DNA of 64,000 nucleotides from Bradyrhizobium sp. JYMT SZCCT0180 (GCF_018130165.1 NZ_JAFCLZ010000019.1:62001-126000), one strand, 5' to 3'; shown: positions 9,676 to 56,077, numbered from the stretch's first letter. Notes: generated by a model from the sequence alone, not told the origin. Made by a program: numbers and translations.

Positions 9676-9691
9676 GGGCAACCTCTCTCCA

Positions 9692-9783: not shown

Positions 9784-9867
9784 AAGAGAGAGCGTCGCGA
9801 TGTCCTCTCCTCCACACCCTCATCTCATGGCATGATCGACTCAACCTGGACGTTACAAGGGATTCGC

Positions 9868-10674: not shown

Positions 10675-10691
10675 GTCGCGCCACGCGCACA

Positions 10692-10790
10692 GCCCTCATC
10701 CTGAGGAGGCCGCGAAGCGGCCGTCTCGAAGGATGGGCCACGGGCTGCATGGTTCGAGACGCCCGCGGTGCGGGCTCCTCACCATGAGGG
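10692..10790. repeat. Palindromic intergenic repeat (CCCTCATCCTGAGGAGG type)
   Basis: Outer arms CCCTCATCCTGAGGAG and CTCCTCACCATGAGGG pair imperfectly. Inner arms are CGTCTCGAA/TTCGAGACG and a GCCGCGAAGCGGC hairpin. This is a second repeat family, distinct from the GGGCTTGACCC elements. Confidence 0.7.
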
Positions 10791-10871
10791 ATATTCCTGG
10801 GTAGGGTGGCTTCCGTGAAGGGGCGCCGTGGCGCTGAACGCAACGGGGCCTGGACGCGACTACCCGACTCC

Positions 10872-13158: not shown

Positions 13159-13240
13159 GCGAGGTCAGCTCCAACAGATGAGAAAACAGGCAGGCCGCGT
13201 TGCGCGGGTTCCCGCATCTTTCGCAAATTGGAACCGAACA

Positions 13241-13260
13241 TAAAGCGATTTTCCGCTTTA
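13241..13260. promoter_or_regulatory. Small dyad upstream of the receiver gene
   Basis: TAAAGCG and CGCTTTA are perfect 7-bp arms around a 6-base loop. They lie 43 bp before the start of the stand-alone receiver gene, within the shared divergent promoter region. It could be an operator or simply a leader hairpin. Confidence 0.35.
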
Positions 13261-13303
13261 ACCCCCTGTTACCGTGATGAATACCCATTCAGGAGGGCGA
13301 CCT

Positions 13304-13699
13304 ATGGGACAATCGAAGCCTTTTCGGGCGACCGCACTCGTTGTCGAAGACGATCCGATGCAGCGGGAAATGATCTGCCTGTTGCTGGAAGAAAGCGACA
13401 TGGACGTGATCGAGTGCGAAAGCGCGGAGGCCGCCGAACTGGTGCTGGAGGAGGCGGGGGCGAGCCTCGTGCTTGTCATGACCGACGTCCAGCTCGCCGG
13501 CCACAAGAACGGCGTGGAGCTCGCGCATGTCGCCAAGAAATTCAATCCGGACATCGATGTGATCGTCACCTCGGGCAAACCGCTTCGGCAGAAGCTGCCG
13601 GATGGCGCCCAATTCTGGGCGAAGCCCTGGGCGCCGCTGGACGTGATCCGCGAGGCGGAAAGGATGTCGATCGCCTGGAGCCGGGTGGGCGAGGCGTAG
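13304..13699 (+). CDS. Stand-alone response-regulator receiver protein
   Basis: A single REC domain with no output domain (131 residues). The acidic pocket is VVEDDP (D16, D17), the phospho-acceptor is D61 in VMTDVQLAG, the switch residue is in VTSGKP, and the conserved Lys is in AKPW. The start is ATG 13304 because AGGAGGG lies 6-7 bases upstream; an earlier ATG at 13274 has no ribosome site. CheY/DivK-like single-domain receivers usually relay phosphate or regulate a kinase. No kinase gene adjoins it, so its partner is unknown. Confidence 0.88.
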   Translation: MGQSKPFRATALVVEDDPMQREMICLLLEESDMDVIECESAEAAELVLEEAGASLVLVMTDVQLAGHKNGVELAHVAKKFNPDIDVIVTSGKPLRQKLPDGAQFWAKPWAPLDVIREAERMSIAWSRVGEA

Positions 13700-13739
13700 C
13701 TGGGGCCGAGCGCCACCATCCAAGCGCCACCATCATTTG

Positions 13740-13838
13740 TCATGGCCGGGCTTGACCCGGCCATCCACGTCTTGGCGGCAAAGCAAGATGTGGCGGCAAA
13801 GTAAGACGTGGATGCCCGGCACAAGGCCGGGCATGACG
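13740..13838. repeat. RPE-like inverted repeat
   Basis: Arms beginning GTCATGGCCGGGCTTGACCC and ending GGCCGGGCATGAC flank an internal direct repeat of TGGCGGCAAAG(C/T)AAGA. It is the same family as 9692. Confidence 0.8.
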
Positions 13839-13959
13839 AAATCAAGCATTAGCCAGCACGGCTTCGTGATCCCAGGGTTTCGGGTGCGCTGCTTCCGCAA
13901 CCGGCCGCGCCATGATATGGCCGACCGGCGCGGCTTTCGCAGCCAATGGGGTCTCGTTG

Positions 13960-14574
13960 ATGACATGGTCCTTCCTGCTCACCACGTTGATCGTGGTCGC
14001 ATCCCCCGGCACCGGCGTGCTCTACACGCTGGCGGTGGCGCTGACGCAAGGCGGCCGCGCCTCGATCGCCGCCGCCTTCGGCTGCACGCTCGGCATCCTG
14101 CCGCAGATGCTGGCGGCGATGCTCGGGCTTGCCGCCGTGCTGCATACCAGCGCTTTGGCGTTCGCGGTGTTGAAATGGTGCGGCGTGGTCTATCTGCTGT
14201 TCATGGCCTGGCAGGCGCTGCGCGAAACCGGCGCGCTTGCGCTCGACGCCCGGCCGGCGCCGGGCCGATCGAGCCGGCGGGTGATCGTCACGGCGGTGCT
14301 GATCAACATCCTCAACCCAAAGCTCTCGATCTTTTTCCTCGCCTTCCTGCCGCAGTTCATCGCGGTGGATGAGGCCTATCCGTTGGCGCGGATGCTTGAA
14401 TTGAGCGGGGTCTTCATGGCGATGACGTTTGCGGTGTTCGCGATCTACGGCCTGTTCGCGGCCGGCGTCCGCGACCGCGTCATCACCCGGCCGAGGGTAA
14501 TGGCGTGGCTGCGCCGCAGCTTCGCGGCGGGATTTGCCGCGCTGGGCGCGAAGCTGGCGTTTGCGGAGCGGTAG
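13960..14574 (+). CDS. LysE/RhtB-family amino-acid exporter
   Basis: An inner-membrane exporter of about 204 residues with the LysE-fold pattern of six hydrophobic segments. The N-terminus MTWSFLLTTLIVVASPGTGVLYTLAVALTQGGRASIAAAFG carries the family motif with Pro-Gly in the first helix. The mid-protein NILNPKLSIFFLAFLPQFI is the second signature. The substrate is probably an amino acid or derivative and cannot be refined. The start at 13960 fits the family; a start at 13912 adds an unlikely N-terminus. Confidence 0.85.
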   Translation: MTWSFLLTTLIVVASPGTGVLYTLAVALTQGGRASIAAAFGCTLGILPQMLAAMLGLAAVLHTSALAFAVLKWCGVVYLLFMAWQALRETGALALDARPAPGRSSRRVIVTAVLINILNPKLSIFFLAFLPQFIAVDEAYPLARMLELSGVFMAMTFAVFAIYGLFAAGVRDRVITRPRVMAWLRRSFAAGFAALGAKLAFAER

Positions 14575-14606
14575 ATGTTGTCGTCAAGCCGGGCGATGAC
14601 CCCGGG

Positions 14607-14635
14607 AAAATAAAAAGCGGGCCCGAGGCCCGCTG
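14607..14635 (-). terminator. Rho-independent terminator of the Lys/Ala peptide transcript
   Basis: On the minus strand an 8-bp GC stem (AGCGGGCC / GGCCCGCT, loop TCG) is followed by TTTTTATTTT. It lies 175 bp beyond the stop of the 22-codon ORF, past the tandem repeat, so the repeat is inside the transcript. Confidence 0.75.
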
Positions 14636-14666
14636 CTTTCGAAATCGATGGTTTTGCAATTGAGAG

Positions 14667-14774
14667 GCTTGAAAGTGGAAGCCTTGAACGTAAGTAGAGC
14701 CTTGAAAGTGAAGCCTTGAAAGTGGGGGCCTTGAAAGTGGAAGCCTTGAAAGTGGAAGCCTTGAAAGTGGAAGC
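14667..14774. repeat. 15-bp tandem repeat, about seven units
   Basis: The unit CTTGAAAGTGGAAGC is repeated with small length and base variants across about 108 bp. The last three copies are identical. On the minus strand it lies in the predicted 3' untranslated part of the Lys/Ala peptide transcript. In one minus frame it would encode STFKA repeats, but no start or conserved protein supports coding. Confidence 0.85.
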
Positions 14775-14809
14775 CCGGGCGGAACTGAGCGCCCCACCCG
14801 GGCCAAAAT

Positions 14810-14878
14810 TCACTTCTTCGACTTCTTGGCCTTCTTCGCCTTCTTCGCCTTTTTCGCCTTCTTCGCTTTCTTAGCCAT
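14810..14878 (-). CDS. Lys/Ala-repeat micropeptide (22 aa)
   Basis: A 22-codon ORF, ATG at 14878, stop at 14810, with a GAGAGG ribosome site 7-8 bases upstream on the minus strand. The product is almost only Lys-Lys-Ala triplets (MAKKAKKAKK..., ending KKSKK): 14 Lys, 6 Ala and one Ser after the Met. It has no signal peptide or membrane segment. Such a polycation would bind nucleic acid, like the Lys-rich tails of histone-H1-like proteins. I recall similar short Lys/Ala proteins in Bradyrhizobiaceae but no experimental function. A following terminator makes a self-contained gene. Codons vary among repeats (AAG, AAA, GCG, GCC), which suggests selection on the peptide rather than recent slippage. 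Confidence 0.6.
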   Translation of the reverse strand: MAKKAKKAKKAKKAKKAKKSKK

Positions 14879-15319
14879 AGTAAATCCTCTCAAGGTTTTA
14901 ATGGATTGAAACGCGACTCCGAGGCATGCTTGGCGGAGGGCCAACCTCGCAACATCCTCAAGATCAATTGCAACAGATTCGCGGCGTGCTGCCGCGTGCT
15001 GTCACGTCGCCGTCATCATGTTATCCACAGCTGTTATGCATTTTGACGTGCTTTTCCGCGAAAATGCCGTTCGGTACCGCCGATCGCGCCGCGCGCATCA
15101 TGCTTAACGATGCCCCAACGCGCGCGCTCTTCATCAATTTAAAACCACGGTATTGATTACCCGGCGACGGTGAGAGTCCGTTAAGCGAGCAGGGCGCACC
15201 TTGTCCGTAAGACAACGGGGATTGTCGATCGGGGAAACGCCCGCGGAGGTGAAAGCCTTGAGCGATTTACTGGGGCGATCTAACAGGGGAGACGGGACGC
15301 TAAGCGTCCCGGGCACGCG
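14879..15319. other. Intergenic region before the diguanylate cyclase gene
   Basis: Contains the promoter of the micropeptide (left side), a single perfect DnaA-box match TTATCCACA at 15021-15029, and a possibly structured leader (15150-15319) ending in a hairpin at the cyclase start. No gene is convincing. Confidence 0.4.
15294..15310 (+). promoter_or_regulatory. Start-proximal hairpin of the diguanylate cyclase mRNA
   Basis: GGGACGC-TAA-GCGTCCC is a perfect 7-bp stem with a 3-base loop. It ends 9 bases before the ATG at 15320 and falls where the ribosome-binding site should be. It could occlude initiation. Confidence 0.5.
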
Positions 15320-16537
15320 ATGCTGAGCGTTCCGACGCTGTGGACGGTGTTCGTCATCAATTTTCTCGCGCTGGGCCTGATCTGGGCCTACGTGATCCGC
15401 AGCTATCCGTCATTCTATGCCGCGCGATACTGGACCGGCTCCTCGTTCATGGCGGCGGCAGGCGCGGCCGTTGCGATGCTGCGCGTCGTGACCGACGCAC
15501 TCTGGCCGCTGCTCATCGCGGGCACCGCGATGATTTTCGCGCTCTGCCTCGCCGCGATGGGCGTCCAGAAATTCTTCGAAAAGCAGGTGTCGTGGCGCGC
15601 CACCTGGCTGGTGATGGGGCTGAGCTTCGCCGGCCTTTCGTTTTTCATGTTCGCCTATGACAGCGCGCCGGCGCGCATCACCATCTTCACCATCGCCCAG
15701 GTTCTTCCGCTGGCGCTGAGCATCAAATTGCTGCTCACCCCGCATCAGGGCCGCGTCAATCCGGGTGCGCGGCTGGCCGCCATCGTGGCCAGCCTCATCA
15801 TCGCCATCTATGCAGTCCGGCTGATCGGCGGCATCGCCGGCGGTTTCTCCTACATGCATTTCAGCCCGGCGCAGTCGGCCGTGATCCTGATGCTGGTATT
15901 CCTGTCGATGGCGCTGAATTTCGGTTTCCTGCTGATGGCGATGGACCATCTGCGCAGCGAAGTCGCCGATCTGGCGCTGCTCGACGACCTCACCGGCGTC
16001 GGCAACCGCCGCCATTTGGTGCAGCGCCTGACCGAGGAATGCGCCCGCTCGGAGCGCAGCAACCAGCCGTTCGCGCTGCTGGTGATCGACCTCGACGGCT
16101 TCAAGGGCATCAACGACACCTACGGCCACGCCGCCGGCGACGCCTGCCTGCAGCATTTCACCCTGATGGCGCAAACCCGCCTGCGCCCCGGCGACATGCT
16201 GGCGCGGTCGGGCGGCGACGAGTTCTGCATCGTGCTGCCGTCCTCGACCTTGCGCGAAGGCGCGATGATCGCGCGCCGGGTGCTGGAAGTATGCCGCGCC
16301 GATGCCGAACAATGCATGGGCAACGATATTCCGATCTCGGTCTCGATCGGCGTCGCACAATGGACCCGGGAGATGGGGGCGTTCCCCGACCGTCTGATCG
16401 CGGCCGCCGACCACGCGCTCTACGACGCCAAGAAGGGCGGCCGAAACTGCTTTGCGACCTACGAGCCCGCGCCGCCGCTGGTGCCCGGGATCGAAATAGC
16501 CGTGCTGGCGGATGCGAGCTTGCGCAAGCGCGCCTGA
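15320..16537 (+). CDS. Membrane diguanylate cyclase (GGDEF)
   Basis: Makes cyclic di-GMP from two GTP. Residues 1-215 form about six transmembrane helices with no recognisable sensory family. The C-terminal GGDEF domain starts at LALLDDLTGVGNRRHL. The active site is SGGDEF. The inhibitory I-site RPGD (RxxD) lies five residues before it, so feedback inhibition is expected. There is no EAL domain. The start ATG at 15320 is fixed by the first membrane helix. The protein is 405 residues long. Confidence 0.92.
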   Translation: MLSVPTLWTVFVINFLALGLIWAYVIRSYPSFYAARYWTGSSFMAAAGAAVAMLRVVTDALWPLLIAGTAMIFALCLAAMGVQKFFEKQVSWRATWLVMGLSFAGLSFFMFAYDSAPARITIFTIAQVLPLALSIKLLLTPHQGRVNPGARLAAIVASLIIAIYAVRLIGGIAGGFSYMHFSPAQSAVILMLVFLSMALNFGFLLMAMDHLRSEVADLALLDDLTGVGNRRHLVQRLTEECARSERSNQPFALLVIDLDGFKGINDTYGHAAGDACLQHFTLMAQTRLRPGDMLARSGGDEFCIVLPSSTLREGAMIARRVLEVCRADAEQCMGNDIPISVSIGVAQWTREMGAFPDRLIAAADHALYDAKKGGRNCFATYEPAPPLVPGIEIAVLADASLRKRA

Positions 16538-16576
16538 AGCATGTTACTCAAGGGGTCGTCACTGGATCCTTTGCGT

Positions 16577-17200
16577 ATGAAGCTCCGCCGCCTTGCGATC
16601 GCGCTCTGCGCCATCGCGTTCACTCTTCCCGCTGCTGCCCAAACGCCCGACCTCGCGACCATCGCGCGATCGTCCGGCACGCCCGAGATTCCGGGGTTGA
16701 AGATGGTCTGGCTGGCGCCATGGGGCGACGTTGCCAAGGCGCATCCCTGGCGCAACATCATCGTGCACCAGACCGAAGGCCCGGCCGGCTCGGCCCGTGG
16801 CGGTGCGCAGGCGCAGTCCAAAAATCCGACGCGGCGCGGCGTCATGGTCTGGGTCGAAACCGACGGCACCGTGTACTGGGCGGTGCCGGAAAATCTGGTG
16901 CCGACCCACGGCGACGGCGGCAACCGCAACGACAACAAATACATCGACAACCGCCCGACCTTTCGTCAGGTGGTCGGCAACAATTCGGTCGGCGTGGAAT
17001 TCGCCGGCAATTTTCCTGATGTAACGCGCGGTCCCACCGAGGCGCAGGTGGCGGCGTGGCGCATCCTGGTCAAGGTCCTGCGCGCGCGTTACGGCATCCC
17101 ACTGACGCAGGTCTATGCGCATAACTGGATCGACTTCAAGGACGCCCGGTACTGCGAAGGCTGCGAACTTGCAAAGCTGGCGCGGGAGTGGGGGGAGTAA
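16577..17200 (+). CDS. N-acetylmuramoyl-L-alanine amidase (Amidase_2)
   Basis: A periplasmic zinc amidase that removes stem peptides from MurNAc. Signal peptide MKLRRLAIALCAIAFTLPAAAQ (start 16577; an upstream start at 16541 would add 12 residues before the basic n-region). Amidase_2 core: NIIVHQTEG with the first zinc His, NSVGVEFAGNF, and YAHNWIDFKDARYCEGC near the C-terminus with the second His. It is small (207 residues) and has no peptidoglycan-binding repeat. It begins 40 bp after the cyclase stop, so it may be co-transcribed with it. Confidence 0.85.
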   Translation: MKLRRLAIALCAIAFTLPAAAQTPDLATIARSSGTPEIPGLKMVWLAPWGDVAKAHPWRNIIVHQTEGPAGSARGGAQAQSKNPTRRGVMVWVETDGTVYWAVPENLVPTHGDGGNRNDNKYIDNRPTFRQVVGNNSVGVEFAGNFPDVTRGPTEAQVAAWRILVKVLRARYGIPLTQVYAHNWIDFKDARYCEGCELAKLAREWGE

Positions 17201-17269
17201 GCTCTCAGTCTTGGCGCGCTGCTGGAGCGCGCTGAACCGGTCCACCAGTATCGCGGATTAGGTCCTCGC

Positions 17270-17382
17270 TGTCATCGTCCGGCTTGACCGGACGATCCAG
17301 TATTCCAGAGGCCGCAGTTATTGCGCGACGTCTCATTTCCGCCGCGGCGTACTGGGTCCCCCGCTTTCGCGGAGGACGACAC
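17270..17382. repeat. Divergent RPE-like inverted repeat
   Basis: The left arm GTCATCGTCCGGCTTGACCGG and the right arm CCCGCTTTCGCGGAGGACGAC are weak mirror copies. Inner GATCCAGTATTCC and GCGTACTGGGTC also pair. It sits between the convergent amidase and rpoH genes. Confidence 0.6.
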
Positions 17383-17403
17383 CGCGAGCGTTGAGCTACC
17401 AAA

Positions 17404-17432
17404 CAACAAAAAGCCGGCGTTGCCGCCGGCTT
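17404..17432 (-). terminator. Rho-independent terminator of rpoH
   Basis: A 9-bp stem (AAGCCGGCG / CGCCGGCTT, 4-base loop) is followed on the minus strand by TTTTGTTGTTT. It lies 27 bp past the rpoH stop. Confidence 0.8.
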
Positions 17433-17458
17433 TCGTCGTTAATTACCTTGGCCGCGAA

Positions 17459-18358
17459 TTAGTGCGCGGCTTCGAGCACGGCGGCTTCCTGCCGGGCAAT
17501 CGTGCCCTTGACGGCCGACTGCACCTTCTCGAAAGCGCGGACCTCGATCTGCCGCACGCGCTCGCGCGACACGCCGAATTCGGCGGCGAGGTCTTCCAGC
17601 GTCATCGGCTCTTCCGCCAGACGCCGCGCCTCGAAGATGCGGCGTTCGCGCGGGTTGAGCACACCGATGGCGCCGTTCAGCGCCTGCCGGCGATGATCGA
17701 ACTCCTCGTGCTCAGCCATGATGGCTTCCTGGTTGGGCGAGTTATCGACCAGCCAGTCCTGCCATTCGCCGGCTTCACCGTCGTCGCGGATCGGAGCGTT
17801 GAGCGACGCGTCGCCACCGAGGCGGCGGTTCATGTCGATCACGTCCTGATTCGTCACGCCGAGGCGCTTGGCAATGATCGCCACCTGATCGGGGCGGAGA
17901 TCGCCTTCGTCCAGCGCGGAGATCTTGCTCTTCGCCTTGCGCAGGTTGAAGAACAGCTTCTTCTGGTTCGCGGTGGTGCCCATTTTCACGAGCGACCAGG
18001 AACGCAGAATGTACTCTTGTATTGACGCCTTGATCCACCACATGGCGTAGGTAGCGAGCCGGAAGCCCTTTTCGGGTTCGAACCGCTTGACCGCCTGCAT
18101 CAGGCCGACATTGCCTTCCGAGACGACCTCGGAAATAGGCAGGCCGTAGCCGCGATAGCCCATGGCGATCTTGGCGACGAGCCGGAGATGGCTGGTGACA
18201 AGGTGGTGTGCCGCGTCGCGATCGTCATGTTCGCGCCAACGCTTGGCGAACATGTATTCCTGCTGGGGTTCCAGCATCGGAAATTTGCGGATCTCGGCGA
18301 GGTATCTAGAAAGGCCGGATTCTCCATTGAGAACCGGCAACGTAGCTGTACGGGCCAT
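17459..18358 (-). CDS. rpoH: RNA polymerase heat-shock sigma factor RpoH (sigma-32)
   Basis: Directs transcription of chaperone and protease genes. The 299 residues carry region 2 (HLRLVAKIAMGYRGYGLPISEVVSEGNVGLMQAV, FRLATYAMWWIKASIQEYI), the RpoH-specific box QKKLFFNLR at about 132-140 that separates it from RpoD, and region 4 with EFGVSRERVRQIEVRAFEKV. Alphaproteobacteria often hold two or more rpoH genes, so this may be one of several. No ROSE-type thermometer was verified in the leader. The gene is monocistronic, with its own terminator. Confidence 0.97.
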   Translation of the reverse strand: MARTATLPVLNGESGLSRYLAEIRKFPMLEPQQEYMFAKRWREHDDRDAAHHLVTSHLRLVAKIAMGYRGYGLPISEVVSEGNVGLMQAVKRFEPEKGFRLATYAMWWIKASIQEYILRSWSLVKMGTTANQKKLFFNLRKAKSKISALDEGDLRPDQVAIIAKRLGVTNQDVIDMNRRLGGDASLNAPIRDDGEAGEWQDWLVDNSPNQEAIMAEHEEFDHRRQALNGAIGVLNPRERRIFEARRLAEEPMTLEDLAAEFGVSRERVRQIEVRAFEKVQSAVKGTIARQEAAVLEAAH

Positions 18359-44450: not shown

Positions 44451-46256
44451 TTACTGCGGCAGGGCGAATACGGTCAGTGATCCGCCAAGCGCCGTGTAGT
44501 TGCTAAGCGCAGCGTAGCCGCCGACCGCGCCGAGACCATCGGTCGGATCGGTCAGACCGGCCGCAAGGCCGATGCCTGCCCAGCCACCGACGCCGGACAG
44601 AATTGCGACATACTGCCGGCCGCCCTGCTCATAGGTCGTGACGTTGCCGATGATGCCGGACGGGGTCCTGAACTTGTAGAGTTCCTTGCCCGTCTTGGCA
44701 TCGACCGCCTTGAGGTAACCTTCGAGCGTTCCGTAGAACACCACGCCGCCGGCGGTGGCGAGCGCACCGGACCACACCGAGAACTGCTCCTTGTTCGACC
44801 ACACGATCTTGCCGGTCTTGTTGTCCCAGGCAATGAAGTTGCCCATGTGGGATTCGCCGGGAGGCGGGTACATCGAGAGCGTCGCCCCGACATAGGGCTG
44901 GCCTGCGGTGTAGCTCACCTTGAACGGCTCATAGTCCATGCAGACGTGGTTGGTCGGCACATAGAACAGCTGGGTGTCCGGCGAGTAGGCTGCCGGCTGC
45001 TCGTCCTTGGTACCGAGCGCGGCCGGGCAGATGCCCTTGGTATTCTTGTCCTCGCCGGTCTGTTCTGTCGAATATTGACTGACGACCTTGGGACGGCCGT
45101 AGGTCGGCGAGCTCTTGTTCATGTCGACGCCGGTGGTCCAGTTGACCTTCGGATCGTACTTTTCGGCGACAAGCAATTCACCGTTGACGCGGTCGAGCGT
45201 ATAAGCGAGCCCGTTGCGGTCGAAATGGGTGAGAAGCTTGCGCTCCGCGCCATTGAACTGCTGGTCGCTCAGGATCATTTCGTTGACGCCGTCATAGTCC
45301 CATTCATCATGGGGCGTCATCTGGTAGACCCAGCGGGCCATCCCGGTATCGGCATTGCGCGCAAAAATGGTCATTGACCACTTGTTGTCGCCCGGGCGCT
45401 GCTTCGGGTTCCAGGTCGAGGGATTTCCCGAGCCGTAATAGACCATGTTGAGCGCGGGGTCATAGGACAGCCAGCCCCATGTGCAGCCGCCGCCGATCTT
45501 CCACTGATCGCCTTGCCAGGTCTTGATGCTCGAGTCCTTGCCGATCGGCTTGCCGAGATCGGTCGTCTTCTCGGGGTCGACCAAGAGCTGATCATCCGGC
45601 CCTTCGGAGAAGGCCCGCCACACCTGCTTGCCTGACTTGAGATCGTAGGCGGTGACGTGACACTGCACGCCGAACTCGCCGCCGGAGATGCCAACCAGGA
45701 CCTTGTCCTTGATGACGAGCGGTGCGGAAGTGCCGGTTGCGCCCTTGCCGGGATCACCGTTCTTCACCGACCACTCAAGTTTGCCGGTCTTGGCGTCGAG
45801 AGCGACCAGCGTGGTGTCGGCCTGGTGCAGGAAGATCTTGCCGTCGCCGTAGGCTACGCCACGGTTTACGGTGTCGCAGCACATCACCGGAATGACGTTC
45901 GGATCCTGCTTCGGCTCGTACTTCCAGACGATCTGTTGGTCCTTGGATAGGTCAAGGGCATAGACCTTGTTTGGGAACGGGGTGTGGACGTACATCATGT
46001 TGCCGATGATGAGCGGTCCGCCTTCGTGGCCACGCAGCACGCCGGTCGAGAAGGTCCAGGCGACCTGGAGCTTGCCGACATTGGCTGCCGTGATCTGGTT
46101 CAGTTTCGAGTAGCGTGTATTGGCGTAGTCGCCTGCCGGCATCACCCAATCCTTCGGGTTCTGCGACATTTTGATCAATTCCTCGTTGGCTACGGCGCTG
46201 CCCACGGCGAACGCCGCCATGGAACCAAAACAAGTTGCAAATAGCAGTCTGCGCAT
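44451..46256 (-). CDS. xoxF: Lanthanide-dependent methanol dehydrogenase XoxF
   Basis: A periplasmic PQQ enzyme that oxidises methanol, 601 residues. Signal peptide [23 protein letters not shown]. The vicinal disulfide C126-C127 lies in [10 protein letters not shown]. Metal ligands are E194 (GGEFGV), N278 (GSGNPS), catalytic D320 and D322 in [11 protein letters not shown]. The Asp at 322 distinguishes lanthanide XoxF from calcium MxaF, which has Ala there. There is no mxaI small-subunit gene nearby. It is first in the run xoxF-xoxG-frmA-gfa. It is divergent from an AraC regulator, and a paired direct repeat lies about 97 bp upstream. Confidence 0.97.
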
Positions 46257-46669
46257 TGCGTCCTCCCACTGATGAAGCCTAGGTACCGCCGAGGTGGCGG
46301 CCCACTTTTTCGATTTTGTCCCGTATCTTTATCCCGTTCGGGAATGGGAAACTTGCCCAAGAGGGAAGGGCATTTGCTCCAAAGCGAACCTCGGCGAACT
46401 TTCTGTTTTCTCCCGAAATCGCTGTGGGCGTTGCCACACATAAGGCAGCGGTTTGGGCCGCCGCTGTGCGGCGCACTACGACGGATGTCGCACGGTCGAG
46501 GCGAACCTTCCCCTTGACGGCGCAGAAACTAAGTCGGAGGATTGTCAAGTGGATGCCGGGACATACGTTGCTTAGGCAACAACGACCGTTCTAAATTGAG
46601 GTAAATCAAACTTCACCGTGACCGAGTCTCCCGCGGCAACAGTTACGTTTCTCGAATCGGTGGCTGGAA
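46257..46669. promoter_or_regulatory. Divergent xoxF/araC control region
   Basis: 413 bp that must hold both promoters. Besides the paired direct repeats listed separately there is a quasi-palindrome ATCCCGTTCGGGAAT near 46331-46345. No gene is convincing. Confidence 0.5.
46353..46388. promoter_or_regulatory. Candidate operator: direct repeat, locus 1 (xoxF)
   Basis: TTGCCCAAGAGGGAAG at 46353-46368 is followed, 21 bp on, by the degenerate copy TTGCTCCAAAGCGAA at 46374-46388. The first unit occurs identically at 51275, again with a second copy 21 bp on. 21 bp is two helical turns, so a dimer could bind one face. Confidence 0.6.
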
Positions 46670-47638
46670 ATGGTTGATACGCTCCACTCGCTTACCACTT
46701 CGGGATTGTCGCCGAAGAAGCAGATCCAGTGCTGGTCGGATGCACTGACGGATCTTTGCGGCCAATTTGACATAGATCCGTTGAAAGCTTCGTCGCTCGA
46801 AGCGCGTGTCAACTACACGACGGTCTCAAAACTGAAGCTCTGTCAGATCGAGGTCAGCCAGCATCGCATCGCGCACACCGTGTCCCGTTCAAAAGCCAGC
46901 GAGCATCCCTACGTCAAGATATTGTTTCAGACGCACGGCGTTTCCTATTTCGAGCAGGAGGGCCGGCGTATCGATCTGATGCCCGGCGATTGTCTTGCCT
47001 ACGATGTATCCTGTCCGCATACGATCGTCAGTCCGGCGCTGACGCGGCATGAAGTCGTCATCGTGCCGAAGGCGCTGCTGCAGGAGCGCGGCTTCCATAC
47101 GGCGCGGATGTCGGCGTGCAAGCTCTCGGCGCGCACGGGCACCGGCCGCATTGCCTATGACTTCGTTCATGCCGCATTTGACCAGGCTGCCAGACTGTCG
47201 CCGAACAACGCGGTCGTCGTCGCCGATTCGCTGATCGATCTGTTGCTGTTGCCGCTGCGCGAAGCGGACGCGAGTTTCGATCGCGGCGGCCCCGAGGCGA
47301 TGTATATTCGCGCTCAGGCCTTCATCCGCGAACATCTGCGCGATCCTGATCTGTGCATCGATCAGATTTCCGCCGCACTGGGCTGCACCAAGCGTTATCT
47401 GCACATGCTGTTCAGCGACCGGGGCATGACCGTCAGCGATTATATCTGGCAGGCACGGTTGCAGAACTGCCGTCACGAACTGGAGACGCACGGCGGCAAG
47501 ACCGTCACGGATGTCGCATTCTCATGGGGCTTTTCGAGTTCGTCCCACTTCAGCCGGGTCTTCCGCAGGTATTTCGGCATTGTTCCGTCTTCGATCCAGA
47601 AGGCGCAGCACAGCAGCCCGGCTCCAGACGCTTCCTGA
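46670..47638 (+). CDS. AraC-family transcriptional regulator
   Basis: 322 residues with an N-terminal AraC-binding-like region of the FeaR/AraC_binding_2 type (FQTHGVSYFEQEGRRIDLMPGDCLAYD) and a C-terminal double helix-turn-helix. The first helix pair is LCIDQISAALGCTKRYLHMLFSDRGMTVSDYI; the second is TVTDVAFSWGFSSSSHFSRVFRRYFG. It is divergent from xoxF across 413 bp. A role in controlling methanol/PQQ genes is the natural inference from position and from the shared repeat, but it is not proven. Confidence 0.9.
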   Translation: MVDTLHSLTTSGLSPKKQIQCWSDALTDLCGQFDIDPLKASSLEARVNYTTVSKLKLCQIEVSQHRIAHTVSRSKASEHPYVKILFQTHGVSYFEQEGRRIDLMPGDCLAYDVSCPHTIVSPALTRHEVVIVPKALLQERGFHTARMSACKLSARTGTGRIAYDFVHAAFDQAARLSPNNAVVVADSLIDLLLLPLREADASFDRGGPEAMYIRAQAFIREHLRDPDLCIDQISAALGCTKRYLHMLFSDRGMTVSDYIWQARLQNCRHELETHGGKTVTDVAFSWGFSSSSHFSRVFRRYFGIVPSSIQKAQHSSPAPDAS

Positions 47639-47801
47639 GTTCCTCAACTCTCCTGATCTGAACCCGATCCGTAGATCGAAGCTCCGATAGCGCAGCGGCT
47701 CGTCGCCCAGTCGGAGCCTTGCTTGGCCCGGTTCCATACGGGCTTTTGGCGGCACGAACATTGCTTTGATCATCCCGCCGGAGAACACAGGAGCGGGACG
47801 G

Positions 47802-48194
47802 ATGAAGCGAATCATCCTTTTTCTCGGAATTTTCGGTTGTTCCGTTACAGCGCTCGGCGCGCGCGACCTTGGTCAATGGGAAAACGCGGATCCTGCGATC
47901 CGGCAGTGGTACCAATCGCTGATGCAGCCCGATGCTCCCAGCGCATCTTGTTGCGGCGAGGCCGACGCCTACTGGGCCGATGAGATCCACGTTCGGGATG
48001 GCAAGACCTACGTGCGCATTACCGATGACCGGCCGGATGAACCGCTCGGCCGGCCCCACGTCAAGAACGGAACGGAAATCGAAATCCCGCACTACAAGCT
48101 CAAATGGGACCAGTCGAATCCGACCGGGCACGGCGTCGTTTTCATGAACCGCAACGGTCACGTGTTCTGTTACGTCCAGCCCGGCGGCGTATGA
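47802..48194 (+). CDS. Small exported hypothetical protein (130 aa)
   Basis: Sec signal MKRIILFLGIFGCSVTALGA, then a compact domain with a vicinal Cys pair (PSASCCGEADAYWADEI) and a C-terminal GHVFCYVQPGGV. It is rich in Asp/Glu (ITDDRPDEPLG), but I see no EF-hand loop like that of lanmodulin. I recall similar proteins in Bradyrhizobiaceae, all unnamed. ATG 47802 is preferred for its signal peptide. It is downstream of the AraC gene by 163 bp. Confidence 0.7.
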   Translation: MKRIILFLGIFGCSVTALGARDLGQWENADPAIRQWYQSLMQPDAPSASCCGEADAYWADEIHVRDGKTYVRITDDRPDEPLGRPHVKNGTEIEIPHYKLKWDQSNPTGHGVVFMNRNGHVFCYVQPGGV

Positions 48195-48202
48195 GCGCTT
48201 GA

Positions 48203-48457
48203 TCAGCCCATCGGAACATGCGGACAGATGCTCGGCCGCTTCTGGGATCCACGCTTGTCGATCGGCACATTGCAATTGTCGATCCGCTGCTCATCCATCC
48301 ATTTCCTGCCGAGCCGCTCCTTGCCGGTCAGTGTTGCAGGCGGGTTTGCCGAGGCCGGTGCCGGCTGCTTGAGTTGCCTGTTGTCCTGGGCCTCGACCGC
48401 TGGCGCGAGGCAAATCGCGAGGAAGGCCCCGATCGTTCCGCAGATCAATGGTCGCAT
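48203..48457 (-). CDS. Small exported hypothetical protein (84 aa)
   Basis: Signal peptide MRPLICGTIGAFLAICLAPAVEAQ, then a hydrophilic segment (KERLGRKWMDEQRIDNCNVPIDKRG) with one or two Cys and a Pro-rich end (RPSICPHVPMG). Start chosen at ATG 48457, since longer readings lack a signal. Function unknown. Convergent with the preceding gene, 8 bp between stops. Confidence 0.6.
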   Translation of the reverse strand: MRPLICGTIGAFLAICLAPAVEAQDNRQLKQPAPASANPPATLTGKERLGRKWMDEQRIDNCNVPIDKRGSQKRPSICPHVPMG

Positions 48458-48617
48458 GTGACTAGCCTCGCAAATTGTAGACACTGATCGGAAACATGAG
48501 TTGCGCCCGATTAAACAACAGCGAGATTCGACCCGCCACCCGGAACCCGTGGCCTCCGAACCGGTTGCTCCTCCGTCCTGACGTGCTGGGGCGCACGGCA
48601 GCTCCAAGGAGGATCAG

Positions 48618-48962
48618 ATGAACACGAAACGACTCATTCTCGCGGCTTGCTCGATCGCTATTTTGAGCATCGGCAGCGCAATGGCTGCCCCGTGCGACAC
48701 CACCGGTCGCGCCGCAAATCTGAAGGACGCGGGTTCCGGACCCGCATCGGTTGGCACCGGCCAGACCACCGGCATGGCTTCCGATGCCAAGGAACACGCG
48801 CCAACCAGCACGATGAATCGTGCAGCCAGCGATGTCGCAGCGTCTTCGCAGGATACGCAAAAGCAGATGCAAGGTCAGCCGACGGCGGCGCAGCAGGCCC
48901 AAGGCGCCAAGTCTGATCAGCACAAGTCTGATCAGCAAATGGCCGAAAAGGCTTGTGATTAG
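48618..48962 (+). CDS. Small exported low-complexity protein (114 aa)
   Basis: Signal peptide MNTKRLILAACSIAILSIGSAMA with AAGGAGG upstream. The mature protein is rich in Ala, Gln, Ser, Thr and Lys, with a repeated SDQHKSDQQ near the C-terminus and a Cys near each end. It is predicted to be disordered or helical. No family recognised. Confidence 0.65.
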   Translation: MNTKRLILAACSIAILSIGSAMAAPCDTTGRAANLKDAGSGPASVGTGQTTGMASDAKEHAPTSTMNRAASDVAASSQDTQKQMQGQPTAAQQAQGAKSDQHKSDQQMAEKACD

Positions 48963-49073
48963 GCCAGCTGTAATTAAGCCGGGACCGCCGATGGTGATCG
49001 GCTGCGGCTAGCCGCGACAGAACAGTGGTGTTCGGTGTGCTCACTGACCGGCACGCCGCCGCGTCGATCAGCT

Positions 49074-49685
49074 TCAGGGCCCGTCCTTGGGTGGAAGAAT
49101 CGGAGCGGGTAGCGGCGCGAATTCGATGTTGCCGGCTTCACCGGTCAGGAACGATAGATCGAGCGGGCCGCCGCTCATCGGATCGCCGCCCGGTGCAGCC
49201 GTCGGGCGAAGCGTTGAGACATCCGCGGGACCTTCCGGCGCGGGTTGTCCATTGCCGGATCCGTAATCGGCCGCGCGTCCGCCCTGCGGATGGCCTTTCA
49301 TGATCTCGTCGCGCGCCGCGGTCACCTTGTGCGCGAGTGCCGCGGAATAGGGCAGGCGATGGGCCCGCGGCTGACCGCTCGGAAGATTGGCGGCATCGAG
49401 TTCCTCGACCCAGATATGCACCGCGCCGGGATCGCGATCGAGCGGGTTCGGCTCGACGACCCGCGCCCACAACAACTGGAACTGCGACGGCAGCGGTGCG
49501 GGCGCCGACCAGCCGGCCAGGCCTTCGATGCGGAAGAACGCCACGCAGTAGTAGACGCTGGTGACAAGCACGGCCGCTGCCTTGAGCTGCCAGGATACGC
49601 GAGCGCGCAGCACAAATATCAGCAACAACGCCGCCAGCAGCGCGTAGGCGATCGACAGACCCAGGATTTCCTTCTGCAATTCCAT
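49074..49685 (-). CDS. Membrane protein with Pro/Gly-rich tail, third gene of MotA/TolQ-like operon
   Basis: 203 residues. Two N-terminal helices (LGLSIAYALLAALLLIFVL and LKAAAVLVTSVYYCVAFF), then a soluble domain (HIWVEELDAANLPSG, HKVTAARDEIMKG) and a Pro/Gly-rich, probably extended C-terminal tail ending APLPAPILPPKDGP. It lies 2 bp after the preceding gene, so all three are one operon. No family recognised. The Pro-rich tail recalls a TonB-like spanning segment, but there is no TonB C-terminal motif. Confidence 0.65.
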   Translation of the reverse strand: MELQKEILGLSIAYALLAALLLIFVLRARVSWQLKAAAVLVTSVYYCVAFFRIEGLAGWSAPAPLPSQFQLLWARVVEPNPLDRDPGAVHIWVEELDAANLPSGQPRAHRLPYSAALAHKVTAARDEIMKGHPQGGRAADYGSGNGQPAPEGPADVSTLRPTAAPGGDPMSGGPLDLSFLTGEAGNIEFAPLPAPILPPKDGP

Positions 49686-49687
49686 GG

Positions 49688-50320
49688 TCAGCCACTCTTG
49701 CTGAGCCGGTTGCGCAGCGTCTGCAGCAGCGACTTTTCGTGATGGTTGACGTCGACGATGCCGCCGCTGGCGTCGATCGAAAAGCGGACGGCGGTGCGTT
49801 CGGTGCCCGCGCTTTGCATCACCATCTTGTCGTAGTGGACGACCTGAACCGTTGGATTGAGCTTCTCGACCTTCACCGAGACCGGCACGGGTTCGCGGCC
49901 CATCGCGATAAAATGGTAGATATTAACGGTGTATTCGCCGGCGACGATGCCGCGGATGCTGACCGTCTCCTGGCGGATCGGCGACAGCACCTTGCGGCCG
50001 TTGACCAGAATGAAATCATTGGCGCCACCACGATCGTCGCGGTCGAGCAGCATGAATCCAGCCTCGCGCCGTCGATACCAGACCATGTTGCCAAGCGGGT
50101 CCTGGACGAACATGTCGAAGTCATCAGGATGCTGGTCGGGCCAGGCCATCGTGACCAGGAATTCCGCCTTGCTGTCGATCTTGCCATCCTTTGCCTCGGG
50201 CGCGATGGCCAGCAATGCGACGAAGAACAGGAAGGCGAGGACCTGTAACGCCTTGAACAGCATGACCGCGAACGGATCGAACGGCTCCTCCTGCGGCATG
50301 AGGTCATATTCGTCGATCAT
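49688..50320 (-). CDS. ExbD/TolR-like protein with a large periplasmic domain
   Basis: 210 residues. One N-terminal helix (PFAVMLFKALQVLAFLFFVALLAIA, about 16-40) follows a short acidic cytoplasmic tail, the topology of ExbD/TolR/MotB. Where ExbD has its proton-carrying Asp in FIDVML, this protein reads PFAVML, with an Asp three residues earlier. The periplasmic part (MAWPDQHPDDFDMFVQDPLGNMVWYRRREAG, GEYTVNIYHF) is a beta-rich domain of unknown family. The start overlaps the MotA/TolQ-like stop by 4 bp. Assignment as the stator partner is inference. Confidence 0.6.
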   Translation of the reverse strand: MIDEYDLMPQEEPFDPFAVMLFKALQVLAFLFFVALLAIAPEAKDGKIDSKAEFLVTMAWPDQHPDDFDMFVQDPLGNMVWYRRREAGFMLLDRDDRGGANDFILVNGRKVLSPIRQETVSIRGIVAGEYTVNIYHFIAMGREPVPVSVKVEKLNPTVQVVHYDKMVMQSAGTERTAVRFSIDASGGIVDVNHHEKSLLQTLRNRLSKSG

Positions 50321-51087
50321 TCCGCCGCCTCGGGTCGATTCTCCAGGATCGAAACCACGCGGACTTCCGTCAGCCCGACGGCGAAGGCAAACAGCTTCGC
50401 GGTCGCATCGTCGAGCATGTAGTACTGGATCCTGACGAGGATGGAACCGACGAGACCGGCGAGCGTCGTGTACATGGCGACCGCCATGCCGTCGCTCATC
50501 AGATTCATCGAAGATCTGACCGTGCTGCGGTCGCTGGGATCTAACCCTGCAATTGGCGCCAGCATCATGATGAAGCCGATGATCGTGCCGAGCAGGCCCA
50601 GCTTCATCAGCGTGTCGCTGGCGAAGGCGCCAAACTGGTTGGAGCCGCGGAGCCGGCTGGCCAGCCCGCGCAGCAGCAGCGTCTGATCGAGCTTCCGGGA
50701 TCCCTGCAGGCGTGCCTTGACGGCAAGGTCGCGAATGTGAGCCGCGACCAGACCGGTTGGAAGCTGGCCGGCGCCTTCGACGACGACGGCGTCGCCGTCA
50801 AGATCAAGGCGCCCCGATCCAGACGCGATCAATGCGCCGGTGCGGCGCGCCGCATCGCCCTCGCGTGCGATCACGATCGTGCGCCACAGGCAGTGTAGCG
50901 ACGTCGCAAAATAGAGCAGAGCGATGATCGGCGAAAGATAGGTACGATCGCCAGCGACCATCTGCCGAACGAGGCCGAAGCGCCACAAAAGAAAGAACGC
51001 AAAAATCCACAGCCCGGTGAAGACCAGCCATCGCAACAGAGGCCCGCGGTCACCAAAAGAATCAAGATCGCCACTCGCCGTTGGCAT
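50317..51087 (-). CDS. MotA/TolQ/ExbB-like proton channel protein
   Basis: 256 residues from ATG 51087 (GAGG 7 bases upstream); a start at 51171 would read through a DNA repeat. Two helices near the N-terminus (LLRWLVFTGLWIFAFFLLW; LSPIIALLYFATSLHCLW) are followed by a cytoplasmic segment. The MotA/TolQ/ExbB core comes next: FASDTLMKLGLLGTIIGFIMMLAPI, then MAVAMYTTLAGLVGSILVRIQYYML. It is first of a three-gene operon divergent from pqqA. The partner topology and lack of tonB, tolA or flagellar genes leave its function open. Confidence 0.75.
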   Translation of the reverse strand: MPTASGDLDSFGDRGPLLRWLVFTGLWIFAFFLLWRFGLVRQMVAGDRTYLSPIIALLYFATSLHCLWRTIVIAREGDAARRTGALIASGSGRLDLDGDAVVVEGAGQLPTGLVAAHIRDLAVKARLQGSRKLDQTLLLRGLASRLRGSNQFGAFASDTLMKLGLLGTIIGFIMMLAPIAGLDPSDRSTVRSSMNLMSDGMAVAMYTTLAGLVGSILVRIQYYMLDDATAKLFAFAVGLTEVRVVSILENRPEAAE

Positions 51088-51092
51088 CCGGA

Positions 51093-51136
51093 CACCTCGA
51101 CCCAAGAACCTGGACCCAAGAACCTCGACCCAAGAG
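51093..51136. repeat. Short tandem repeat upstream of the MotA/TolQ-like gene
   Basis: Three near-identical units of ACCTCGACCCAAGA (one with GG for CG) lie just upstream of the chosen start at 51087. They fall in the 5' leader. Confidence 0.7.
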
Positions 51137-51436
51137 AACGCCAACCTTCCACATGTCGCATGGGCAGGCAAACCGAATTCGTCAAATGTCGATTCAAGCG
51201 TCCGTTGGGCACAAGGTCTTTCACGGCCCGTGCGCTATTGCGCTCATGCCGCGAGACGATCCGGTGTTCCGCATTTGCCCAAGAGGGAAGTAACTTTGTC
51301 CGAGAGAGAAATTTCGAGCGTAAGTGCGGCAATCCAGCGTTGTGCGGTCGATGTTCCGTACTTGCGCTGCGTCCGGGGCCGCCCTAGGTTCTGCCCCGGC
51401 GTGAACGTCGCGCCAAACTAGTTGGGAGGACCCCGA
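51137..51436. promoter_or_regulatory. Divergent promoter region of the MotA/TolQ-like operon and pqqA
   Basis: About 300 bp containing the paired direct repeats and the ribosome site GGGAGGA (51424-51430) of pqqA. No other gene. Confidence 0.5.
51275..51310. promoter_or_regulatory. Candidate operator: direct repeat, locus 2 (pqqA / MotA-like operon)
   Basis: TTGCCCAAGAGGGAAG at 51275-51290 is identical to the copy upstream of xoxF. The degenerate second unit TTGTCCGAGAGAGAA starts at 51296, again 21 bp on. Relative to xoxF, the same orientation faces the MotA/TolQ-like operon; the opposite faces pqqA and araC. Confidence 0.6.
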
Positions 51437-51517
51437 ATGACTTGGAAGACTCCGAAAATCGTCGAAGTGTCGGTGGGCATGGAAATCAACATGTACGCCT
51501 GCGCATCGCGCAAATAG
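51437..51517 (+). CDS. pqqA: PQQ precursor peptide PqqA
   Basis: A 26-codon gene that begins MTWKTPKIVEV and ends YACASRK. The Glu and Tyr joined to make PQQ are in VGMEINMYA (E-x-x-x-Y, E16 and Y20), the defining PqqA motif. The ribosome site GGGAGGA lies 6 bases before the ATG. No pqqB, C, D or E gene follows, so this copy is separate from the biosynthetic operon. Position among xox genes supports the call. Confidence 0.88.
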   Translation: MTWKTPKIVEVSVGMEINMYACASRK

Positions 51518-53597: not shown

Positions 53598-54326
53598 CTA
53601 TGAGGCATCCCGCTCGGTGAGACCGCCGTCGATCCGCCGCATGATGTCTGACTTGATCGCAGCGATCTCGGCGTCGCCCCGCGCGCGACGGGGTGTGCGG
53701 ATGGGCAGCTCGGCAACAACCCGGGCCGGTCGCGGCGACAGCAGGAACAGGCGGTCGCCGAGACGGGCCGCATCGTCCACGTCATGGGTAACCAGCAGCG
53801 TCATCACCGAACGGCCGTCGACCAGCATGGCAATCTGATCGCGCAGGCGCGCGGCGAGGGCGTCATCGAGCGAGGCCAGCGGTTCGTCGAGAATCAGGAA
53901 ATCCGGCTCGATGACGAATGCGCGGGCGAGCGCGACGCGCCGGGCAAGGCCGAGCGATAATTCGCCAGGAAAATGCTTGCGATGCGCGTTCAATTCCAGA
54001 ATCTCGAAGAGGGCTGAAAGCTTCGCTTCGTCGATCAGAGGCGCGACAAGCCGCACGTTTTCTTCGACCGATCGCCATGGCAATAGCCGCGGTTCCTGAA
54101 ACACGACTCCGATCCGCGCACCGGCCGGACGCACCACGCGCCCCTTAAAGTCGTGGTCGAGGCCGGCGAGAATCCTCAGCATGGTGCTCTTGCCGCAGCC
54201 GGAAGGGCCGACGAACACGCCAACCTCTCCTGCATCGAGCGCAAAGGCCACGCCGGCGATCACGTCGTGCTGTTCGCCCGCCGCGTTCCTGAACTTCTTG
54301 CTGGCGATATCGACCTCAAGCCGCAC
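53598..54326 (-). CDS. ABC transporter ATPase (nitrate/taurine type)
   Basis: 242 residues from GTG 54326 (a TTG at 54356 is possible). Walker A GPSGCGKST, Q-loop VVFQEP, Walker B FLILDEP, switch His in VTHDVDDAARL. The signature, usually LSGGQ, reads LSLGLARRVALARAF. That is a degenerate C-loop as seen in some NitT/TauT relatives, so activity should not be assumed absent. It is last in the SBP-permease-ATPase run and overlaps the permease stop by 11 bp. Confidence 0.85.
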   Translation of the reverse strand: MRLEVDIASKKFRNAAGEQHDVIAGVAFALDAGEVGVFVGPSGCGKSTMLRILAGLDHDFKGRVVRPAGARIGVVFQEPRLLPWRSVEENVRLVAPLIDEAKLSALFEILELNAHRKHFPGELSLGLARRVALARAFVIEPDFLILDEPLASLDDALAARLRDQIAMLVDGRSVMTLLVTHDVDDAARLGDRLFLLSPRPARVVAELPIRTPRRARGDAEIAAIKSDIMRRIDGGLTERDAS

Positions 54327-55053
54327 GGGGGCGCCACCGGGATAACCGGGCCTCAAATGGCTGCACCAACACGGTTTCGATGACGAGCACGACAGCCGCG
54401 AAGCTCAGTGAATAGGCCAGGAGAAGCGGGATGTCGAACAATTGGAACGCGACGCCAATCTCGAAGCCAACGCCGTTCGGGCGTCCAAGCAACTCCGCAA
54501 CAAGGACGATCTTCCAGACCAGGGAAAGTCCCGATCGCGCAGCGGCTGCGATATAGGGCGCCAGTTGCGGCAATATGACGTGCCGGAACGTCCTTGAGCG
54601 CGGCAACGCAAATACTGTCGCCATTTCGTCGAGCGCCGCGTCGAGTGCCCGCGCGCCCTCACGCAGCGTCACGACGGCGGTCGGCAGCTTGTTGATGGCA
54701 ATTGCCGCAATTGCGGCGGCTTCGGTCAATCCGGCCCAGATGTAGGCGAGCACGATGACCACGAGCGCCGGCAGGTTGAGCAGCAGAATCAGCCAGGGAT
54801 CGCCGAGTCGGTCGGCAAGCCGCACCCGGCCCATCAAATAGCCGATGGCTGAACCCAGCGACATCGCCAGGGTGAAGGCGAGCGCCACACGCGCCAATGT
54901 CACGCCGAGATTGAGGAACAGATCACCCGACTTCGCTTCCGCAAGCATGGCCGCGAGCACGGTGGGCGGAGGCGGCAGCTTCGCATCGCCGGCGAGCAGC
55001 GAGGCGATCCACCAGGTTGCGAAAAACACGGCGAATGACAGCAGACGCGGCAC
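54316..55053 (-). CDS. ABC transporter permease (nitrate/taurine type)
   Basis: 245 residues from GTG 55053, which starts right after the upstream binding protein's stop with GGGAG 6 bases before it. About six helices. The EAA loop is ALDEMATVFALPRSRTFRHVILPQLAPYIAAA. It belongs to the BPD_transp_1 family with SsuC/TauC. Upstream ATG 55128 would overlap the binding protein by 74 bp and is less likely. Confidence 0.85.
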   Translation of the reverse strand: MPRLLSFAVFFATWWIASLLAGDAKLPPPPTVLAAMLAEAKSGDLFLNLGVTLARVALAFTLAMSLGSAIGYLMGRVRLADRLGDPWLILLLNLPALVVIVLAYIWAGLTEAAAIAAIAINKLPTAVVTLREGARALDAALDEMATVFALPRSRTFRHVILPQLAPYIAAAARSGLSLVWKIVLVAELLGRPNGVGFEIGVAFQLFDIPLLLAYSLSFAAVVLVIETVLVQPFEARLSRWRPRAA

Positions 55054-55054
55054 C

Positions 55055-56077
55055 TCAGTCTCCCGGGATCGCGTGATAGAAGGTGCCGGAAGCAAGTTCC
55101 GGCGCCGCCCCGACAAGTTCGCGGCCACCGATCCCAGCCAGCACGCGGTAGAGGATGCGCGCGTCGGCTTCCTCGTCGGCGATCGGGCGACGTGGAATTC
55201 CCTCCCGGTAACGATCGCGATAAACGCGGAGCGTTGCGGTGTCGGGGGCGCCGGTCAGCGGTGCAATTTTCTCCCACTCGGCATCCGAGGTCGACAGGAT
55301 CTCCTTCGCCATGCGGGTCATGGCGATAAAGCGGGCCACTTTGTCCTGGTTGGCGTTCGCCCAGGCTTCGTCGAAGACGTAGCCGATCATCGCGGTGCGG
55401 CCGGTGGCGCCAAGTTTCGGCAGCAGATCCTCGACGCCGGCGACGCGGCGGAAGCCTTTCGCTTCCAGCACGGCGCAGAAATTCCAGTAGTTCATGGTGG
55501 CGTCCATCTCCCCGCTGAGCGTCTTTGCCGTCAGCAGCGGCGGCGCGCCGTAAGCGATGGTCGCCTCCGACTTCAGGTCGATGCCGCCCTGTTTCAGCCA
55601 CGCTTGCAACAGCAGCCAGTTCTTGTCGATCGGGCCGCCGGCAACGGCGAGCTTGCGGCCCTTCAGATCAGCCAATGTCTGGATCGGCGACGCGGCCGGT
55701 ACCATGACGGCGCCGAGCGCGCTCGAATAGGGATAGAATGTCAGCTTGGCGCCAAGTGTACGTTCGCGCGATACCCACAGCCAGTCGGAGACGATGATGT
55801 CGGCGTTGCCGGCGCGAAGCGCGATCTTGCCCGCCTCGGGGCTCGCGAGTTCGACAACCCCCACCGAGAGATTGGCCTGCTTGTCGAGACCATGGGCGCG
55901 GATCACGGCAAGTTCCCAGGCGAATGTTCCGGTTTTTTGCACCGCAACCCGCACGGTCTCGGCGCCGTAGCATGTACCGACCTGCGCAAAGGCCAAAATA
56001 ACCGCAGCCAGCAGCATGCGAATGCAAATTGTCATGGTGAGCCGTTTCCGCGCGCATCTTTTCTTGAGGACTGTCAT
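55055..56077 (-). CDS. ABC transporter substrate-binding protein (NMT1/SsuA-like)
   Basis: 340 residues from ATG 56077; ATG 56035 would also retain the signal (MTICIRMLLAAVILAFAQVGTCYG). The fold is NitT/TauT periplasmic binding: VRVAVQKTGTFAWELAVIRAHGL, DIIVSDWLWVSRER, LKGRKLAVAGGPIDKNWLLLQ, YGAPPLLTAKTLSGEMDA. Its ligand is unknown. It sits within the quinoprotein gene region, so a metal, chelate or cofactor precursor is possible. It is divergent from the 56114 gene by 36 bp. Confidence 0.85.
   Translation of the reverse strand: MTVLKKRCARKRLTMTICIRMLLAAVILAFAQVGTCYGAETVRVAVQKTGTFAWELAVIRAHGLDKQANLSVGVVELASPEAGKIALRAGNADIIVSDWLWVSRERTLGAKLTFYPYSSALGAVMVPAASPIQTLADLKGRKLAVAGGPIDKNWLLLQAWLKQGGIDLKSEATIAYGAPPLLTAKTLSGEMDATMNYWNFCAVLEAKGFRRVAGVEDLLPKLGATGRTAMIGYVFDEAWANANQDKVARFIAMTRMAKEILSTSDAEWEKIAPLTGAPDTATLRVYRDRYREGIPRRPIADEEADARILYRVLAGIGGRELVGAAPELASGTFYHAIPGD

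Follow-up and report, generated by a model that had tools for sequence, protein, structure and literature searches.

Which regulator could couple the synthesis of the lanthanide-type methanol dehydrogenase XoxF to that of PqqA, the precursor of its cofactor pyrroloquinoline quinone (PQQ), in Bradyrhizobium? This question is raised by a stretch of 64,000 nucleotides from Bradyrhizobium sp. JYMT SZCCT0180 (NZ_JAFCLZ010000019.1:62001-126000), referred to here as the window, whose positions are counted from its first letter. In it, the 16-mer TTGCCCAAGAGGGAAG is found, exact at both loci, at 46353-46368(+), between xoxF and a divergent araC gene, and at 51275-51290(+), upstream of a solitary pqqA gene, with no further copy in the window even when up to 3 mismatches are allowed. 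A degenerate partner starts 21 bp after the beginning of each copy (TTGCTCCAAAGCGAA at 46374 and TTGTCCGAGAGAGAA at 51296), and the original prediction, which had pointed out this arrangement, was correct to the base. The resulting tandem is very probably the binding site of the neighbouring AraC-type regulator, and we consider it likely that it constitutes an AraC/XylS-type operator through which the protein encoded at 46670-47638 activates xoxF (in a class II configuration) and the solitary pqqA (in a class I configuration) together. The elements involved are the following:

46352-46389, plus strand: operator A, the tandem between xoxF and araC, with half-site 1 (CTTGCCCAAGAGGGAAG, 46352-46368) and half-site 2 (TTTGCTCCAAAGCGAAC, 46373-46389), period 21 bp
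51274-51311, plus strand: operator B, the tandem upstream of pqqA, with half-site 1 (TTTGCCCAAGAGGGAAG, 51274-51290) and half-site 2 (TTTGTCCGAGAGAGAAA, 51295-51311)
46670-47638, plus strand: araC, AraC/XylS-family regulator (AraC_binding_2 and HTH_18 in Pfam), the proposed operator-binding protein
44451-46256, minus strand: xoxF, lanthanide-type methanol dehydrogenase (TIGR03075; second Asp of XoxF enzymes present)
51437-51517, plus strand: solitary pqqA (MTWKTPKIVEVSVGMEINMYACASRK), a second copy of this gene

Is the tandem more than a coincidence? As far as the shared 16-mer is concerned, its identity is weak evidence, since the window contains 28 direct repeated 16-mers (around half of them from one variable number tandem repeat) vs 2.7 expected from an order-2 Markov model, and the 16-mer alone is thus not remarkable here. 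The 21-bp tandem, in contrast, is a real signal, far from chance: the two sites of the window reach tandem matrix scores of 46 and 52, and no score of 24 or higher appeared in 3.84 Mb of simulated sequence, where the best was 13.6. The earlier argument that a coincidence was unlikely consequently holds for the spaced tandem, but not for the identity of the 16-mer by itself. At the genome level, scans were performed with relaxed patterns allowing mismatches rather than with the full matrix, using the reversed pattern as a control. In the 8.04-Mb genome, the relaxed tandem pattern (up to 3 mismatches) retrieves 3 sites, which all lie within 21 kb on contig C11; the reversed control retrieves none. 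Two of these sites are operators A and B, in the xoxF/araC gap and before pqqA, and the third (C11:128894-128929; L034 3893-3930) is located just outside the window (about 2.9 kb past its end), where a histidine kinase (HK) gene and the gene for a LuxR-type response regulator (RR), followed by fghA, diverge. It is upstream of both, at 5 bp from the HK gene and 181 bp from the RR gene. As a separate observation on repeated sequences, an array of a tandem 15-bp unit, GAAGCCTTGAAAGTG, occupies 14668-14775.

The architecture of the site already indicates the kind of protein that would bind it. The half-site comprises 15 bp, TTGYYCRARAGNGAA, with the consensus TTG[CTA][CT]C[AG]A[G]AGNGAA, in which the boxes TTG...AGNGAA are separated by approximately one helical turn, and the tandem has a period of 21 bp (20-22). 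Dyad symmetry within the half-site is not significant (0.418 observed vs 0.379 +/- 0.078 after shuffling columns, a value reached by 29% of the shuffles), and the half-site is therefore a non-palindromic direct repeat, the format of AraC/XylS half-sites. The sequence features of an AraC/XylS-type tandem are present, i.e., two asymmetric half-sites, 15-17 bp long and in direct orientation, a period of 21-22 bp and two boxes in each half-site.

This arrangement is kept in nearly all Bradyrhizobium. Of the 147 genomes of the genus, 118 contain 1-3 tandems (21-bp pattern, up to 2 mismatches), and the control pattern has 0 matches in any of them. Gene contexts were read in fetched loci adding up to 2.32 Mb, with some genomes present twice. 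These loci hold 186 tandems, 104 of which lie between araC and xoxF, 73 before pqqA and 4 in HK/RR gaps, the remaining five being found once each beside araC alone, between araC and gfa, between araC and xoxJ, between an MBL gene and xoxJ, and at an xoxF with pqqA on the opposite strand. In other words, 181 of the 186 flank the start of araC or pqqA, and the other 5, in HK/RR or MBL/xoxJ gaps, fall inside no searched gene. Around the AraC ortholog, the tandem is present between xoxF and araC in all of the 80 named loci (80/80, nearly all from Bradyrhizobium), with a spacing of 21 bp in 72/80 and of 22 bp in 8/80, the latter belonging to B. elkanii-type clades. In the four of these eight loci whose fetched stretch includes pqqA, the spacing before that gene is 20 bp (4/4). 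The second tandem, before pqqA, is on the same strand as this gene, in most cases 122-127 bp ahead of the start codon, and the same-strand rule has a single exception (G245). In the loci read, the matches thus all belong to promoters of xox, pqq or linked C1 (one-carbon) genes, as had been foreseen for a genuine xoxF/pqq regulon, and the site is kept upstream of xoxF in relatives, whose lack of it had been named as grounds for abandoning the idea. A further arrangement consists of three consecutive half-sites before pqqA, forming two overlapping tandems (L094 at 16815 and L112 at 16492).

How could such an operator act on its promoters? Three candidate promoters surround the two sites:

46326-46354, minus strand: predicted xoxF core promoter, with the -35 AAGTTT at 46354-46349, which shares 3 bp with half-site 1, and the -10-like TAAAGA at 46331-46326
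46514-46542, plus strand: predicted araC promoter, TTGACG-N17-GAGGAT, conserved and 53-125 bp (variable) from the operator
51362-51390, plus strand: predicted promoter of pqqA, TTGCGC-N17-TAGGTT, which begins 50 bp past operator B

On the side of xoxF, which is the first gene of xoxF-xoxG-flhA-gfa (the cytochrome after xoxF matches TIGR03874), the flank of the site is conserved as CTTCNCTCTTGGGCAAG-TTTCC...GNTA, and in 84 of 89 site-A loci the TA follows the half-site at 20 nt. Taking this TA as the start of the -10 hexamer, a 17-bp spacer would make the predicted -35 box cover the final 3 bp of the half-site. Operator A is separated from the xoxF start codon by either around 97 or around 217 bp, but its distance from the TA does not vary, which means that the extra bases are located in the xoxF leader. 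At pqqA, the distance from the site to TTGCG-N17-TAGGTT is 49-51 bp in 49 of 57 sites, 39-40 bp in 4 and 28-30 bp in another 4, that is, in helical phase. Based on this geometry, two AraC monomers would occupy the two head-to-tail 15-bp half-sites, about two helical turns apart. At xoxF, the proximal half-site would lie over the -35 box and the bound dimer would bring the RNA polymerase to a promoter that is weak on its own, as in XylS-like class II activation, and at pqqA the operator, in the opposite relative orientation and 49-51 bp upstream of the promoter, would act from the same helix face as a class I activator. The opposite orientation of the site in the two promoter classes resembles the marbox rule of MarA and SoxS. 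In this way, one signal would raise XoxF together with PqqA.

Could the bound protein, on the contrary, repress xoxF and/or its own gene? The overlap between the operator and the xoxF -35 box, together with the position of the site beside the gene of its regulator (common in autorepression), would suit a repressor. Nevertheless, the -35 box is contacted by the proximal half only, as in XylS class II activation, and it is a poor one, and the location of the pqqA site, 49-51 bp upstream and in helical phase, makes simple repression improbable there. As regards araC, its promoter lies at a variable distance from the operator and is probably independent of it. Altogether, repression appears unlikely, and activation by the AraC protein is the reading that we infer from the sites, their conservation and spacing, the promoter geometry and the co-occurrence described below. 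Autoregulation of araC as the main role of the site was discarded, given its own TTGACG-type promoter at a variable distance.

The distribution of the site bears on the identity of the binding protein. The araC product exhibits matches above the gathering scores to HTH_18 (9e-21), AraC_binding_2 (6e-16) and HTH_AraC (1e-13), and has the C-terminal double helix-turn-helix and the N-terminal effector domain of the AraC/XylS family, with SoxS, RamA, Rob and MarA as matches in the PDB. Its nearest curated model is FeaR (NF007243), although with 164.8 bits vs a cut-off of 199 it does not qualify as a FeaR. An ortholog is encoded in 136 of the 147 genus genomes; the strict motif is found in 117 of them, and the other 19 all have the 22-bp spacing at araC, whereas just one of the 11 AraC-less genomes (G036) contains the motif. 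Of the 159 genomes of the family, 24 encode AraC, 56 have xoxF and 23 contain the motif. Among the family genomes with xoxF, the motif accompanies AraC in 22 of 24 but is found in only 1 of 32 lacking it (Fisher p = 3e-12 under the assumption, not valid here, that the genomes are independent). The two AraC-containing family genomes missed by the pattern have a degenerate tandem (G245) and one clear half-site (G218, whose AraC is 46% identical), respectively. The site also moves with araC: in G181, araC and its site adjoin gfa, and xoxF is on another contig without any site; in G245, araC and its site face xoxJ, and the two sites of this genome have an AGAC variant in common; and in G183, an unlinked pqqA located 4.4 Mb away carries the site. 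The site therefore follows the AraC protein, and not xoxF or the response regulator. A link to xoxF as such was rejected, as the xoxF of G181 and the second xoxF genes of G183 and G285 have no site. The suggestion that a dimer or a tandem-bound regulator, perhaps the divergent AraC protein, uses the motif is hence favoured by the AraC/XylS-like spacing, the non-palindromic half-site and the co-occurrence and co-movement with araC.

Some points weigh against this reading. The matrix behind the scores given above was trained on the Bradyrhizobium sites themselves, from the same clade, and the related genomes compared are not independent. The genome G036, an 80% complete assembly, has the site, and AraC was not detected in it. 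In the complete genome G229, a perfect pqqA operator (L179 8632-8669) is kept and xoxF and the RR are present, but no AraC ortholog was found in it, only AraC-like proteins with 24-31% identity. In two genera (g6 and g24), the pqqA copy next to araC lacks the site. As a related observation, in the genome G276 (L170 9324-10224) araC is split across several reading frames and the operator is intact, which may reflect a frameshift or a sequencing error.

The case of G229 is also what speaks for an unlinked regulator using the site, with the co-occurrence of AraC reflecting only the shared ancestry of a C1 island. Yet the site accompanies araC outside the xoxF context (G181 and G245) and is absent from 31 of the 32 AraC-less xoxF genomes, which makes such a regulator very unlikely. 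A linked candidate would be the LuxR/NarL-type RR of the two-component system encoded in the same cluster (HK and RR beside fghA), which would operate in the manner of the lanthanide switch PedR2 and is found in 140 of the 147 genus genomes (E<=1e-60). The tandem in the HK/RR gap itself also speaks for this candidate. It is lineage-specific, present in only 4 of the 24 gaps fetched, with scores of 41-46 and in two lineages (spacing 21 and 22), the others scoring below -16. NarL-type regulators recognize inverted heptamers, and the half-sites, without significant dyad symmetry, do not have the format of a NarL/LuxR operator. Moreover, four of the five family genomes with the RR and no AraC lack the motif (G186, G243, G252 and G265), as does G049 in the genus, and G030 combines AraC and two sites with an RR match (1e-64) that is only of paralogue level. 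In view of this, binding by the RR seems highly unlikely, and the AraC protein is retained as the candidate.

The original prediction also held that, if orientation matters, the motif tied to xoxF a MotA/TolQ-like operon that lies on the other side of operator B:

49074-51087, minus strand: MotA/TolQ-like three-gene operon (MotA_ExbB; the other two genes have no Pfam match)

This link is scarcely credible, since the site separates the operon and pqqA only in this genome, its close relatives and G139, is kept around 125 bp before pqqA where the operon is missing (as it is at most loci), and is absent in G151, where the operon precedes pqqA without any site (L177). No conserved sequence or promoter was found on the MotA side of operator B, and orientation lends the link no weight: the site shares its strand with pqqA and araC, xoxF being on the other one. 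The operon is a bystander, outside the regulon. The other pqqA copy of the genome adjoins pqqB on contig C3 (C3:107431-107508), and no operator was found there in the genome pattern scan. Beyond the solitary pqqA, 53598-56077 encodes an ABC transporter with an NMT1/SsuA-like binding protein, which is encoded in most Bradyrhizobium xox/pqqA clusters examined and is possibly a part of the C1/lanthanide system. In L034, a Calvin-cycle cluster (8404-17773) directly follows the xox/TonB-receptor cluster, with a CbbR-like LysR regulator and then look-alikes of fbp, prk, tkt, fba, rbcL, rbcS and cbbX, recognized by eye from translated starts.

Which signal would the AraC protein perceive? Because flhA and gfa are linked in the xoxF operon, and araC is beside gfa in G181 and G218, our guess is that the inducer is methanol or a compound derived from it, such as formaldehyde or its glutathione adduct. 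On a broader scale, it may tentatively be proposed, as a possibility that we would not yet call probable, that the main methanol/lanthanide switch in Bradyrhizobium is this AraC protein, which, as a one-component sensor, would respond to a C1 signal (methanol, formaldehyde or a lanthanide-dependent product), take the place of the two-component switches found in other methylotrophs and couple XoxF to extra PqqA from a dedicated second pqqA. The link to the solitary pqqA suggests, at any rate, that the supply of the cofactor precursor is tuned together with XoxF.

Among nodulating Bradyrhizobium, the lanthanide-dependent oxidation of methanol by XoxF is widespread, and no regulator of it was found for this genus in the open papers searched. 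A 2025 study on the methanol growth of Bradyrhizobium through XoxF deals with the same enzyme system in the same genus (PMC12628762), and the terms 'AraC', 'regulator', 'promoter' and 'pqqA' are absent from its text. Likewise, no usable description of an AraC regulator of xoxF, of this operator or of a FeaR operator was found in the open literature, to which the search was restricted, subscription papers being outside its scope. With a precisely defined operator and a candidate regulator that can be named, both conserved in the genus and in several sister genera, this regulation is now directly testable.

How does this system compare with those already known? Tandem operators of the AraC/XylS type are of a known kind, and it is the regulon for xoxF and pqqA that appears to be undescribed. 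In other bacteria, MxbDM/MxcQE/MxaB/MxaY and PedS2/PedR2 (PMC5784242, PMC5018670, PMC6115532), which control genes for PQQ alcohol or methanol dehydrogenases, are two-component systems or orphan response regulators, unlike the Bradyrhizobium operator, which tracks an AraC protein. FeaR, the regulator of aromatic amines in E. coli, is the nearest curated model, but the match is below its cut-off and the neighbouring genes are different here. The sites of XylS, MekR, AraC and MtlR have periods of 21-22 bp, as calculated from the sequences printed in PMC4514859, and the closest parallel is XylS at the Pm promoter of the Pseudomonas putida TOL plasmid, which has direct 15-bp repeats TGCA-N6-GGNTA with a period of 21 bp (PMC4225500, PMC4514859), the proximal one overlapping the -35 box by 2 bp, an overlap that is essential (PMC4225500). 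Like this system, the one described here has a (candidate) regulator of the AraC/XylS family, two direct 15-bp half-sites, the 21-bp period and, as predicted for xoxF, a proximal half-site on the -35 box. They differ in the half-site itself (TTGYYCRARAGNGAA here), in the target genes, in the predicted overlap at xoxF (around 3 bp) and in the existence, in Bradyrhizobium, of a second proposed target, pqqA, whose site lies farther away and is oppositely oriented.

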